In this document: in pieces, positions 51,573 through 59,131 of the stretch
Numbering within the stretch: position 1 is the first letter of the stretch
Layout: every line of letters starts with the position of its first letter
Assembly: GCA_947630135.1 (NCBI GenBank)
Contig: CANRGH010000008.1
Span: forward strand, 1 to 64,000
Length of the DNA stretch: 64,000 bases
Source of the DNA: an uncultured Monoglobus sp.
GTDB taxonomy: Bacteria > Bacillota > Clostridia > Monoglobales > Monoglobaceae
Direction of reading: 5' to 3'
Program-made: the position numbers and the translations under genes
The notes under the pieces: generated by a model
The model's database searches: none
What the model saw: the letters and a program-made list of their open reading frames with translations, nothing else
Told to the model about the DNA's origin: nothing

Positions 51573-52595
51573 ATGGACACAATCGAACTGCTTAAAAGAC
51601 TGACAAAGCCGCGCGGCGTGAGCGGAAACGAAAAGCCCGCCGCCGAGGCGGCTGCCGAGCTGCTGAGCGAGTACTGCGGCGAGACGAGCCGCGACAACAT
51701 GGGGAACCTGCTCGGGATAGTCCGCGGAACAAATCCTGATAAAAGGATAATGCTCGAGGCGCATTTGGATCAGGTGGGTTTCATCGTCACGGAAATTCTG
51801 GAGGGCGGATTTTTGAAGTTCGCGGCCGTGGGTGGCGTGGACGCCAGAATTTTGCCAGGACTCAAGGTGAAGATTTTCGGGAAGCGCGAGATATTCGGCG
51901 TTGTTGACGCGCCCGACGAGCCGCCCGAAAAGACTTCCGAAATCAAGGATATGAGGATATTCACGGGATATGAGGAGGAAGAGCTTAAAAAAATCGTCAG
52001 GATAGGCGATCACATAGCCTATGACTATGAGCTGACCGAGCTGCTTGACGGAAATCTCTGCTCGGGCGCTATGGACAACCGCGCGGGCATGGCGGTCATG
52101 CTGTCGGCCCTGAAGCGGCTTAAAGGGAAAAATCTCGCCGCCGATATATACACCATGTTTTCCACTCAGGAGGAGGTCGGCCTGCGCGGCTCCCGAACGG
52201 GAGCGTTCGCGGTAAGGCCCGATCTCGCGATCGTGGTCGACGTGACGCACGGCACCACGGTGGACTCCGAGAAGGACCCGGGCGTGTTTGACCTCGGCAG
52301 CGGAGCGGTGATACTCCGCGGCCCGAGCGTTGACTATGACAAAAGTCTCGAGCTGATCGAAGTCGCGGAAAACAACAATATCCCGTATAAGATCGAGGCT
52401 GCGGGCGGAGCGTCCGGAACCACAGCCTGGGCGATCCAGATCGCGGGCGGGGGCGTGCCGACGCTGCTTATCTCTATACCGCTGCGGTACATGCACACCA
52501 ATGTCGAGGTCCTGAAAACCGCCGACGTCGAGGCCGCGGCTGCTTTGACCGCCGCGGCAGTTGAGTATTTTTCAAAAGCATGGGAGGCGAAATGA
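51573..52595 (+). CDS. M42 family metallopeptidase (intact metal site)
   Basis: LEAHLDQVGF, GAMDNRAG, STQEEVGLRGS, VVDVTHG, PLRYMHTNVEV. Confidence 0.92.
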   Translation: MDTIELLKRLTKPRGVSGNEKPAAEAAAELLSEYCGETSRDNMGNLLGIVRGTNPDKRIMLEAHLDQVGFIVTEILEGGFLKFAAVGGVDARILPGLKVKIFGKREIFGVVDAPDEPPEKTSEIKDMRIFTGYEEEELKKIVRIGDHIAYDYELTELLDGNLCSGAMDNRAGMAVMLSALKRLKGKNLAADIYTMFSTQEEVGLRGSRTGAFAVRPDLAIVVDVTHGTTVDSEKDPGVFDLGSGAVILRGPSVDYDKSLELIEVAENNNIPYKIEAAGGASGTTAWAIQIAGGGVPTLLISIPLRYMHTNVEVLKTADVEAAAALTAAAVEYFSKAWEAK

Positions 52596-53581
52596 TGAGC
52601 GGAGTTAATTTTGAGTTTATGAAAAAGCTGTCGGAAGCGTTTGGCGTATCGGGCAGAGAGAACGAGGTCCGCGATTTGATAAAAAACGAGATCGAGCCGT
52701 ACTGCGAGTCGGTCACAACCGACGGGCTCGGCAATCTTATCGCCGAAAAAGGCGGCGAGGGCGAAAGGCTCCTGCTGACCGCGGCGATGGACGAGCCCGG
52801 CTTTATAATAACCAATATTAAAGAGGGCGGCGGCGCGTTTCTGGACTTTGCCGCGGTGGGCGCGGTGAAGCCCCACACGGTGATCTCGGAATCGGTGACT
52901 GTGGGCGACAAAAAGCTGCCCGGAATAATTTCCCTAAAGGCGGTCCACCTGACCACCAAGGAGGAGCGCGAAAAGCCGCCCGCGCTCAAGGATTTGTTTA
53001 TTGACATAGGCGCGGACTCGAAGGCGGCGGCGGAGGCCGCCGTGACCCTCGGCGATTACGCGGCGTTTAAGAGCCGCTATGTCGAGCTCGGCGACAACCG
53101 CGTGAGCGGAAAGGCGATCGCGCGGAGCGCCTGCTGCGCCGTTCTCGCGGCGCTGATAAAGGACGCGGCGGATCGGCCCTTGACCTGCGTGTTCACGGCG
53201 CAGAAGCAGACGGGCGTCCGCGGTGCGAGACTGAGCTTCGGCGAAAATTTCAAAGAGGCAGTGATAATCGACACTCTCGAGGACGAGCGGGCAAAGCTCG
53301 GAGACGGTGTTTCGGTTCCGCGAATAGTCGGCGAGACCTGCGTTGACGCGGATGTCGCCGAAAGGCTTGAGGCGGCCGCCGAGAGCGCGGGAAAGCTCTG
53401 CTGCTTCGCCAAAAAGAACAGCGTCAGCGATATTGAGGGAATAAGCGTCAGCGGCGGTGGAATACGCTGCGCCGAGCTTGATATTCCCATGCGCAACAAG
53501 AACACCGCCTCGGAGATTGCCGACAAGCGCGACATCTCGGCGGCCTATGAGACTTTGAAAAAATATATTAAAGACGCGTAA
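52592..53581 (+). CDS. M42-like protein lacking most metal ligands (putative pseudoenzyme)
   Basis: M42 architecture but AAMDEPGF, KAIARSACC, TAQKQTGVRGA, IPMRNKNTASE at the ligand positions. Confidence 0.85.
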   Translation: MMSGVNFEFMKKLSEAFGVSGRENEVRDLIKNEIEPYCESVTTDGLGNLIAEKGGEGERLLLTAAMDEPGFIITNIKEGGGAFLDFAAVGAVKPHTVISESVTVGDKKLPGIISLKAVHLTTKEEREKPPALKDLFIDIGADSKAAAEAAVTLGDYAAFKSRYVELGDNRVSGKAIARSACCAVLAALIKDAADRPLTCVFTAQKQTGVRGARLSFGENFKEAVIIDTLEDERAKLGDGVSVPRIVGETCVDADVAERLEAAAESAGKLCCFAKKNSVSDIEGISVSGGGIRCAELDIPMRNKNTASEIADKRDISAAYETLKKYIKDA

Positions 53582-53598: not shown

Positions 53599-56217
53599 AT
53601 GGACAGAAAAAAATTATTGATTATAGACGGCAACAGCATTTTAAACAGGGCGTACTACGGGATAAGGCCGCTCACCGCGCCCGACGGCACGCCGACCAAC
53701 GCCGTTTACGGATTTTTAAACATTATGCTGAAATACCTCGACGAGGAAACTCCGGATTATCTGGGAGTGGCCTTTGACCTTAAGGCCCCGACCTTCCGTC
53801 ATAAGATGTATGACGAATACAAAGCCCAGCGCAAGCCGCCCGAGCCCGACTTTCTGGCGCAGATACCGATTATAAAGGAGGTGCTCGCGGCCATGGACTG
53901 CAAATGCGTGGAGCTTGAGGGCTTTGAGGCGGACGATATTATTGGCACGATCTCCCGCGTGTGCGACGAGAGCGGCATAGACTGCTCGATTTTGACGGGC
54001 GATAAGGACGATCTGCAGCTCGCGTCCGACAGCACAGTTATCAAGCTGGTCGTGACCCGTCGCGGCAGCACCGACACCACGCCCTATGACAGGGCGGCGG
54101 TCATTGAGGAATACGGCGTGACCCCGACGGAGTTCATAGACGTAAAGGCGCTGATGGGCGACCCCAGCGACAATATCCCCGGCATCAGGGGCGTGGGCTC
54201 GAAAACCGCGTTTGCGCTTGTTCAAGAGTATAAGAGCCTTGACAATATTTATGACAAGATAGACGAGATAGAGGTGAGCACTTCGGTCAGGAACAAGCTC
54301 AAGGCCGGAAAGGAGGCCGCTTATCTCAGCAAAACACTCGCGACGATCGTGCGCGACGTTCCCATTGATTTCGCGCTTGAGGATTACGCCTATAAGGCTC
54401 CCGACGGCCAAAAGCTCAAGGAGCTGTTCACGCGCCTCAACTTCAAGTCGTTTATGAAGCGTTTCAACTTCTCTCCCGCCGCCGAGAAGGAACCCGAAAA
54501 GATCAGCGCCGAGAGCAGACCGATCGCGCCCGACAAGGCGATTGAGCTTATCAAAAGCGCCGGAAGCGTGTGCTATGTTTTAAACCACGACACGGGCCGT
54601 ATGACCTTTTCCGCGGGCGGCGATGACGCGGCGTATGTGTTTGAGCCCGACAAAACGGCGCTTGAAAAAATATTCGCCGACGGTGACATAAAAAAGACGG
54701 GCTATGACTTAAAGCGCGATATACTTTACTTAAACTCAAAAGGCGTCGGATACGAGGGGCTCGGTTTTGACGCGCTTATCGCCGCGTATATCGACGACCC
54801 TGTCCGAAGCAAGTATGACATTGACCTTTTGTGCCTCGACTATCTGGGAATGACACTGAGCGGATTGGGCGCTGAAAACGAGGGCCAGATCTCGATGGAC
54901 AGCGGGTTTGATGACGAGGACAAGCTTGATGCCTGCGCTCTCGCGGCGGTTCGCGGCTTGAGTCGCGTGTTTGCCGAAAGGCTCGGGAAAAACGGTCAGG
55001 AGAGACTTTACTATGACATAGAGCTGCCGCTTATCAAGGTTCTGGCAGATATGCAGATAACGGGAATGTACGTTGACAAAAACGAGCTTTCGGCCTTCGG
55101 CGAAAAGCTGAAGTCGAGGATCGAGGTTCTGACCAAGAAGATATATGAGTACGCGGGCGAGGAGTTTAACATAAAATCCCCGTTCCAGCTGGGCGATATT
55201 TTGTTTGAAAAGCTTGCCCTGCCCCATGGTAAAAAGACAAAGCGCGGCTATTCCACCAACATAGAGGTGCTTAAAAAGCTCTCGGGCTCGCACCCGATAA
55301 TCGACGCGGTGATCGAGTACCGCTCGCTTACCAAGCTTGACTCCACCTACGTTGACGGGCTTATAGCGGTCATCAACAAAAAGACGGGCCGCATCCACTC
55401 GAGCTTTAACCAGACCGTGACAGCTACCGGACGAATAAGCAGCACCGAGCCGAATTTGCAGAACATTCCGGTGCGCACCGAGCTGGGCCGCGAGATACGG
55501 AAAATGTTCGCCGCCGAGGGCGAAAAGGTTCTGGTCGACGCCGACTATTCACAGATCGAGCTGAGAGTTCTGGCCGACATTTCGGGCGACAAAAACATGC
55601 GCGCCGCCTTCCTTGACGGAGCCGATATACACACCCGCACCGCGGCGCAGGTTTTCGGCGTGCCGATAAACGAGGTGACGACCACCATGCGTTTCAGGGC
55701 CAAGGCGGTAAACTTCGGAATAGTTTACGGCATCGGCGCGTTTTCTCTGGCGCAGGATCTGAAGGTCACGCGCAAGGAGGCCGACAAATATATCAACGAT
55801 TATTTGAATTATTATAAGGGCGTTGACGAGTACATGAAAAATATTGTCGAGAAGGCCAAGGAGGACGGCTATGTCAGCACCAAATACGGCCGTCGCCGCT
55901 ATATGCCAGAGCTTAAGGCGAGCAACGGAATAACCCGTGCCTTCGGCGAGAGAGTCGCGCGCAACGCGCCTATTCAGGGAACCGCGGCGGATATTATAAA
56001 GATCGCCATGGTTAACGTCTATCGGCGGCTCAAGGCCGAGGGGCTAAGATCCAAGCTCATTCTTCAGGTCCACGACGAGCTCATTGTCGAGGCCGAGCCC
56101 GAGGAGCGCGAAAAGGTCGAGGTTATCCTGCGCGAGGAGATGCAGAACGCCGCAAAGCTCAAGGTGCCGCTGACGGTTGACCTTAACTCGGGCAAGCGCT
56201 GGTACGATACAAAATAA
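53599..56217 (+). CDS. polA: DNA polymerase I
   Basis: 5' nuclease domain ...GDKDDLQLAS..., polymerase DADYSQIELRVLADISGD, RFRAKAVNFGIVYGIGAF, QVHDELIVE. Confidence 0.96.
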   Translation: MDRKKLLIIDGNSILNRAYYGIRPLTAPDGTPTNAVYGFLNIMLKYLDEETPDYLGVAFDLKAPTFRHKMYDEYKAQRKPPEPDFLAQIPIIKEVLAAMDCKCVELEGFEADDIIGTISRVCDESGIDCSILTGDKDDLQLASDSTVIKLVVTRRGSTDTTPYDRAAVIEEYGVTPTEFIDVKALMGDPSDNIPGIRGVGSKTAFALVQEYKSLDNIYDKIDEIEVSTSVRNKLKAGKEAAYLSKTLATIVRDVPIDFALEDYAYKAPDGQKLKELFTRLNFKSFMKRFNFSPAAEKEPEKISAESRPIAPDKAIELIKSAGSVCYVLNHDTGRMTFSAGGDDAAYVFEPDKTALEKIFADGDIKKTGYDLKRDILYLNSKGVGYEGLGFDALIAAYIDDPVRSKYDIDLLCLDYLGMTLSGLGAENEGQISMDSGFDDEDKLDACALAAVRGLSRVFAERLGKNGQERLYYDIELPLIKVLADMQITGMYVDKNELSAFGEKLKSRIEVLTKKIYEYAGEEFNIKSPFQLGDILFEKLALPHGKKTKRGYSTNIEVLKKLSGSHPIIDAVIEYRSLTKLDSTYVDGLIAVINKKTGRIHSSFNQTVTATGRISSTEPNLQNIPVRTELGREIRKMFAAEGEKVLVDADYSQIELRVLADISGDKNMRAAFLDGADIHTRTAAQVFGVPINEVTTTMRFRAKAVNFGIVYGIGAFSLAQDLKVTRKEADKYINDYLNYYKGVDEYMKNIVEKAKEDGYVSTKYGRRRYMPELKASNGITRAFGERVARNAPIQGTAADIIKIAMVNVYRRLKAEGLRSKLILQVHDELIVEAEPEEREKVEVILREEMQNAAKLKVPLTVDLNSGKRWYDTK

Positions 56218-57657: not shown

Positions 57658-57662
57658 TTTGG

Positions 57663-57681
57663 GGGCGGATATTATCCGCCC
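57663..57681. repeat. GGGCGGATATTATCCGCCC hairpin repeat
   Basis: Identical to 13954..13972. Confidence 0.75.
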
Positions 57682-57718
57682 GAAAATAATATTCTATAAA
57701 CCGAAAGGAGCAAAAACC

Positions 57719-59131
57719 ATGTCAAAAACCCTGCTTAATAAAAACAACAATAACAAATTTTCCGAACTGACCGCGGCCGAGGCCAAGAGCATGAACGCCT
57801 ACTGCGAGGATTACAAAGCTTTTCTTGACAAGGCCAAGACCGAGCGTGAGTTCGCTCACGAGGCGGGAAAATATCTCGAGGATAACGGCTTTAAGCCGCT
57901 TGAGTCAAAGGACAAGCTGAAGCCAGGCGACCGCGTTTATACCATAAACCGCGGCAAGGGCGTGCTGGCCGCGGTGATCGGCGCGCGACCGATAACCGAG
58001 GGCGTTACGATAGTGGGCGCGCACATTGACTCGCCCCGTCTTGACTTAAAGCCCAACCCGCTGTATGAGGACGGCCACTTTGCCTTTTTTAAGACCCATT
58101 ACTACGGAGGAATAAAAAAATACCAGTGGACGACCGTTCCTCTGGCGCTCCACGGCGTGGCGACACTTGAGGACGGGACCCAGATCAAGATAAGCGTCGG
58201 CGAGAAAGACGGCGACCCGACATTTATGGTGACCGATCTTCTGATCCACTTCGCCAAGGACCAGATGCAGAAAAAGCTTATCGAGGCAATTCCCGGCGAG
58301 AGCCTTAACATAATCCTCGGCAACGCCGAATATGACGGCAAGGACGATGAGGGCGAGGAAATAAAGGAAAAGGTAAAATACAACATATTAAAGCTGCTCA
58401 GCGACAAATACGATATTTGCGAGGAGGACTTCATCAGCGCTGAGATCGAGGCGGTTCCCGCGTACAAGGCAAAGGACCTCGGTCTTGACCGCAGCATGGT
58501 CGCGGCCTACGGCCATGACGACCGCGTATGCTCATACGGCGCTTTAAGGGCGGTGGCCGATCTTAACAGACCGACCCACACCGCCGTGTGCCTGCTGGTT
58601 GATAAGGAGGAGATCGGCAGCGTGGGCAACACGGGTATGCGCTCGAGATATTTTGAAAACACGCTGGCCAAGATAATCGACAAGCGCGAGGACGGTTACA
58701 GCGATCTCAAGCTGCGCGAGACCATGTCAAACTCGGTGTGCATTTCGGCCGACGTCTGCGCGGCGTTCGATCCGGGCTGGCCCGAGGCGGCCGAGAAGCA
58801 CAATATTCCCGTTATCAACGGCGGCCTCGGCGTTATGAAATACAGCGGCTCGGGCGGAAAAAGCGGCGCCAGCGACGCGGGCGCGGAGCTTATGGCCAAG
58901 CTGAGAAAGATATTCAACGAAGGCGGCATAAAATGGCAGGCGGGAGAGCTCGGCAAGGTTGACGGCGGCGGCGGCGGCACGATCGCGGGCTTTGTCGCGA
59001 ACCTTGACATTGAGGTCGTCGACGTCGGCGTTCCTCTGCTTTCGATGCATTCGCCGTACGAAAGCGCCGGAAAGCTTGATATTTACATGGCCTATAAGGG
59101 CTACAAAGCGTTTTTTGACAGAAAGGATTAA
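57719..59131 (+). CDS. M18 family aminopeptidase
   Basis: VGAHIDSPRLDLKPNPLYEDG, AAYGHDDRVCSYGALRA, LVDKEEIGSVGNTGMRS. Confidence 0.93.
   Translation: MSKTLLNKNNNNKFSELTAAEAKSMNAYCEDYKAFLDKAKTEREFAHEAGKYLEDNGFKPLESKDKLKPGDRVYTINRGKGVLAAVIGARPITEGVTIVGAHIDSPRLDLKPNPLYEDGHFAFFKTHYYGGIKKYQWTTVPLALHGVATLEDGTQIKISVGEKDGDPTFMVTDLLIHFAKDQMQKKLIEAIPGESLNIILGNAEYDGKDDEGEEIKEKVKYNILKLLSDKYDICEEDFISAEIEAVPAYKAKDLGLDRSMVAAYGHDDRVCSYGALRAVADLNRPTHTAVCLLVDKEEIGSVGNTGMRSRYFENTLAKIIDKREDGYSDLKLRETMSNSVCISADVCAAFDPGWPEAAEKHNIPVINGGLGVMKYSGSGGKSGASDAGAELMAKLRKIFNEGGIKWQAGELGKVDGGGGGTIAGFVANLDIEVVDVGVPLLSMHSPYESAGKLDIYMAYKGYKAFFDRKD

Follow-up and report, generated by a model that had tools for sequence, protein, structure and literature searches.

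Two genes of the M42 aminopeptidase family overlap in a genome of an uncultured Monoglobus sp., a gut bacterium, and only the first of them encodes an intact metal site. The question is why the second gene, whose product could hardly be catalytic, has been retained. We analysed this locus in a window of 64,000 nucleotides, and compared it with related loci of Clostridia.

Two overlapping M42 genes

The gene of subunit A (P0001, positions 51573..52595) and that of subunit B (P0002, 52592..53581) lie on the forward strand and share an ATGA overlap (52592..52595), in which the start codon of B falls on the stop codon of A. A ribosome-binding-like GGGAGG sequence (52582..52587) is situated just before the second ATG. 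Both open reading frames and the overlap had been reported in the first-pass annotation of this DNA, together with the suggestion of co-translation; given the overlap, the two genes are likely to be translationally coupled. Scans for promoters and terminators produced no more sites than scans of shuffled sequences, within noise. The pair constitutes the only M42 genes detected, at the search threshold used, in this 2.35-Mb, 99% complete genome; the closest relatives with a name are MAGs of uncultured Monoglobus.

Subunit A matches nearly the whole Pfam model PF05343 with 246 bits (the curated cut-off is 23.2 bits). Positions H68/D182/E212/E213/D235/H323 of PhTET2 correspond to H64/D168/E200/E201/D223/H308 of A, encoded within 51762..52496 on the forward strand (H64 at 51762-51764, D168 at 52074-52076, E200-E201 at 52170-52175, D223 at 52239-52241, H308 at 52494-52496). 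All five metal ligands and the general-base glutamate are thus present, as expected of a competent M42 aminopeptidase, and these residues are invariant among the compared Monoglobus genomes. This agrees with the initial description of the ligand motifs of the upstream gene as intact. The AlphaFold2 model of A (mean pLDDT 93.6) matches M42 structures from PDB.

In TET aminopeptidases, a mobile loop of the catalytic chamber carries a conserved histidine (His123 of PhTET2, in a PPH motif) that stabilises the substrate (PMC8993905). Subunit A lacks this histidine. Its loop is shortened to GVVDAPDEPPEKTSEIKD (51897..51950, forward strand); the corresponding loop of homologues is longer and contains PPH.

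Subunit B scores 151 bits against PF05343, again far above the cut-off, and covers profile positions 1-289 of 292. Its AlphaFold2 model is confident (mean pLDDT 92.2) and has the M42 fold with the proteolytic and PDZ-like domains; the TM-scores to the M42 enzymes 9qr6, 4p6y and 1xfo are about 0.9, in agreement with the fold-level similarity noted earlier. At the six PhTET2 positions listed above, B has A65/A177/K205/Q206/D227/N304. Four of the five metal ligands and the general base, replaced by Lys205, are therefore lost. The sole remaining ligand is D227 (PhTET2 D235), and the non-ligand aspartate of the H-x-D motif (D67) is also retained. B does not have the residues of a catalytically competent M42 enzyme (ligands H-D-E-D/E-H and the base glutamate), and the losses listed in the first-pass annotation prove correct in detail when aligned to the PhTET2 positions. 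Alternative ligands, which would have spoken against its reading, do not form any conserved set in B: the site positions in Monoglobus are A/S/G, A/M/G, K/S/R, Q, D and N/G. The D235 ligand position is occupied by glutamate in intact B genes and by aspartate in many dead ones.

The loop of B is kept. The region LKAVHLTTKEEREK (52928..52975, forward strand; the codon of His119 is at 52946-52948) stands out within Monoglobus as the 12-residue window of highest conservation in the dead protein, and His119 is invariant across an alignment of 32 B proteins.

Conservation of the pair and the clostridial A-B-C array

The pair is present in all 11 other Monoglobus genomes compared, with B being 47-98% identical (in one genome it is split over two contigs). 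The dN/dS ratio of the dead B is 0.10-0.15 between close Monoglobus genomes, and that of A is similar. Hence B is conserved under purifying selection and is not decaying. Lack of the pair in relatives, suggested at the outset as a sign of simple decay, was not observed.

Elsewhere in the Clostridia, the locus typically comprises three ancient M42 paralogs in an array A-B-C. On a tree of 129 proteins P0001 falls into A and P0002 into B (SH-aLRT of the B clade is 100); A and B are approximately 30% identical. A recent local duplication was rejected as the origin of the pair, since A and B are ancient paralogs of a widespread clostridial array, and the possibility that P0002 is a degenerate C gene was rejected as well, since it groups with B. 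Whenever both were detected in an array, B adjoined A. In the window A and B are adjacent on the same strand with A first; the next gene (53599..56217, forward strand), which from its sequence we take to be DNA polymerase I-like (polA-like), starts 17 bases past B, and thus the third gene is absent here, as it is in Monoglobus.

Within the family to which the window belongs, some genera have A and a dead B, with C missing or extremely diverged, and other genera have A, an intact B and a dead C. Overall, C is dead in 79 of 202 arrays. The chamber-loop histidine was found in none of the 202 C-type proteins, even in those with an intact metal site; a single motif hit was off-position. The C proteins in sister genera of this family are M42 homologues of reduced length (about 300 aa) that have a dead metal site and share a conserved GD-x-K/R-R/K pattern (L014, L015, L021, L024, L026, L027, L031, L053, L054, L167). 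At five loci with A and a dead B (L056, L060, L063, L064, L067) the adjacent C homologues are extremely diverged, retain hardly any metal-site residue, and were detected only by HMM.

For 219 A-B pairs, representing 39 family groups, the state of the loop and of the metal site was scored. The loop histidine was called by motif, and ambiguous rows were resolved by hand. It is present in all B proteins (220 of 220), including those with dead metal sites, and the metal site of A is intact, with the same site string, in all 219 usable A proteins. Where B is dead (59 arrays), A has lost the loop histidine in 54 cases and kept it in five; most of these losses involve a part of the loop or all of it, the metal site of A itself being kept. 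Where B is intact (160 arrays), the loop histidine of A is kept in 157 cases and lost in three. Thus there are eight exceptions to the reciprocal pattern among 219 arrays. In all 20 solitary M42 genes compared, a single chain contains both the loop histidine and the metal motifs.

Death of C has no such link to the loop of A: in 63 arrays with a dead C and an intact B, A retains the histidine in 60 (discordant rows were checked by hand). General degeneration of the array is therefore unsupported as the cause of the loop loss in A. One genus of Clostridiaceae (g55) contains a stepwise series of states: both features intact (L170, L171), the histidine of A lost with B intact (L152, L169), and both the histidine of A and the metal site of B lost (C. 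homopropionicum, L048). At a further locus, L172, the A reading frame stops before the last metal-ligand histidine, possibly due to a frameshift or an assembly error.

The association holds separately in three families (Fisher p values of 1.7e-9, 1.3e-9 and 4.4e-8, uncorrected for relatedness within families). A correlated-evolution likelihood test was run on the tree of A constructed without the loop columns, and the correlated model was favoured (LR 67, four parameters, p ~1e-13). On the same tree B has died nine times, and eight of these origins are accompanied by loss of the loop histidine in A. If only well-supported branches are considered, five independent pairs are left, with two to three showing a change of A in the same direction and none in the opposite one, which is too few for a sign test. 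The three origins in the family of the window may be one event, as the dead B proteins form a single clade on the tree of B. An honest range for independent deaths of B, as judged from these trees, would be five to nine, a modest number.

Candidate loop donation in trans

Reciprocal loss of the loop in A and of the metal site in B suggests that one active site is shared between the two subunits. Were the loop to act on the site of its own subunit, a dead subunit would be expected to lose the loop and a live one to keep it. The opposite is observed, which points to a loop-swapped A:B heterodimer. His123 of PhTET2 may lie near the site of the adjacent subunit, and its loss lowers activity; the TET loop, which might serve its own or the neighbouring site, is disordered in crystals and the distances to the histidine vary (PMC8993905). 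In the M18 aminopeptidase DNPEP, the loop that bears His170 is swapped in from the opposing subunit, the H170F mutant is inactive, and the authors proposed a loop swap for M42 too (PMC3472314).

The following mechanism may be proposed. A and B would assemble into an M42 heterodimer with swapped loops, from which a tetrahedral particle would probably be built. A would contribute the two-metal site and the general-base glutamate. B would contribute the mobile loop, whose His119 would cross into the site of A and hold the substrate carbonyl, like His170 of DNPEP. Ancestrally, A and B could each have had a metal site and a loop, serving each other. When one direction of this exchange was abandoned, the metal site of B and the loop of A would have become useless together and decayed. 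The outcome would be one composite site per A:B heterodimer, that is, six per dodecamer, and B would have to stay as the loop donor of A.

It is fairly probable that P0002 is a conserved pseudo-peptidase subunit acting as a loop donor in trans. The first-pass annotation had proposed a dead subunit that mixes into or regulates the complex. A conserved pseudo-subunit of a mixed M42 complex is indeed the best reading, although "mixes into or regulates" says too little: death of B co-varies with the loss of the partner's loop, which points to a more specific role, donation of the loop histidine to the site of A in an A:B heterodimer. The function of B would then be that of a dedicated trans-activator, and B would be neither inert nor purely regulatory. 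Formation of the heterodimer, placement of the loop in trans and dependence of A on B are what we infer from the pattern of losses, and completion of the neighbouring active site by the loop histidine of B is suggested by analogy with M18 enzymes. More generally, we lean, if only slightly, towards M42 enzymes of Clostridia having repeatedly become obligate heteromers of an active loop-less subunit and a metal-dead subunit kept only as a loop donor.

There are two counterpoints. Firstly, A could be active without B, since C-type proteins have no loop histidine, and one of them, TmPep1050 of T. maritima, is active alone (PMC3511314); thus the loop histidine is not strictly required in all M42 enzymes. 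Secondly, as metals drive dodecamer assembly in known TETs (PMC4745047), the loss of metals in B may weaken assembly or change the particle.

Among the alternatives to loop donation, the best surviving one, in our opinion unlikely, is that B is a structural subunit that only fills positions in the particle, providing stability, chamber geometry or substrate gating, or tunes activity, with its loop retained as a chamber filler and the histidine not entering the site of A. Heteromers of M42 proteins are known, the predicted fold of B is intact, its dN/dS is low, and C-type enzymes can be active without the histidine, all of which fit such a role. However, it leaves unexplained both the invariance of the histidine in dead B proteins and the association of its loss in A with the death of B (54 of 59 arrays against 3 of 160).

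Still less probable is a common cause, in which a switch to another substrate or particle type in these lineages relaxed the loop of A and the metal site of B independently, with no direct complementation. The losses do cluster in three families, and strictly independent events are few. Yet eight of the about nine origins on the tree are concordant, death of C shows no similar link, and the loop of B is never lost. It is very improbable that B has left the peptidase complex to become a separate binding or regulatory protein encoded in the operon, the co-variation with A being coincidental: the new conserved set K205-Q206, D227 and N304 in the old pocket of Monoglobus proteins could bind something, but this set varies between genera while the loop is constant, and B adjoins A wherever both were detected. 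Simple decay of a duplicate or an assembly artefact, compatible with the loss of five key residues, is ruled out for practical purposes by an open reading frame conserved throughout Monoglobus with dN/dS of about 0.1 and by the same pattern in distant families.

Relation to known peptidases

Earlier work has described M42 enzymes, TET heteromers and loop swapping, as well as pseudo-subunits of other peptidase families. The pair shares the fold, the Pfam family and the PDZ-like dimerisation domain with the tetrahedral M42 enzymes (PhTET1-3, MJ0555, YsdC/YtoP, CelM, TmPep1050), and A has their complete H-D-E-E-D-H site. Most of these enzymes have the loop histidine. Unlike them, P0002 is devoid of a usable metal site and A of the histidine, and we propose a single site common to both.

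Three M42 proteins of T. maritima, TM1049 (2fvg), TM1050 (TmPep1050) and 1vho, which we take to be TM1048, look like types B, C and A, respectively, of one such array. The loop histidine is present in 2fvg and 1vho and absent in TmPep1050. In contrast to the window pair, the metal site is complete in both 1vho and TmPep1050, and the motifs of 2fvg are kept in the aligned parts.

A metal-binding subunit is paired with a metal-less partner supplying other active-site residues in heterodimeric M16B peptidases and in the mitochondrial processing peptidase. This arrangement is similar, but the fold is unrelated and there is no self-compartmentalised tetrahedron.

Two M42 paralogs are likewise mixed in one particle in the PhTET2-PhTET3 heterododecamers (PMC4220976). 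There, however, both subunits are active and the blocks are homodimers, whereas the prediction for the window pair is an obligate A:B heterodimer in which one partner is dead. A further precedent for M42 heteromers comes from B. subtilis, where YtoP and YsdC yield in-cell crosslinks (PMC10090944). In DNPEP the site is completed by the histidine of the opposing subunit, as proposed for A:B; that enzyme is a homodimer in which each subunit gives and receives a loop, whereas here the roles would be split between two genes (PMC3472314). No account of M42 pseudo-subunits, and hence none of a recurrent one retained as a loop donor with reciprocal decay of its partner, was found in the open-licence literature searched, nor was anything relevant on tandem or inactive M42 proteins. 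M42 is not among the families mentioned in a 2024 review of pseudo-metallopeptidases (PMC11266112).

If the proposed mechanism is true, the co-variation in the arrays is evolutionary evidence for a TET loop acting in trans, and A:B heterodimers rather than homodimers are the native building block. Arrays with the metals in one subunit and the loop in the other make the choice between the own and the neighbouring site directly testable. Division of the loop and the metals would also explain why so many bacteria have two or three adjacent M42 genes. In practical terms, the product of a gene annotated as "M42 family peptidase" may have no activity by itself, and active partners may look weak if expressed alone.

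A candidate aminopeptidase of another family is encoded about 4 kb downstream of the M42 pair (57659-59131, forward strand). From the motifs AHIDSPRLDLKP, GHDDRVCSY and KEEIGSVG its product is presumably M18-like. M18 is the family where the loop-swapped histidine was demonstrated.
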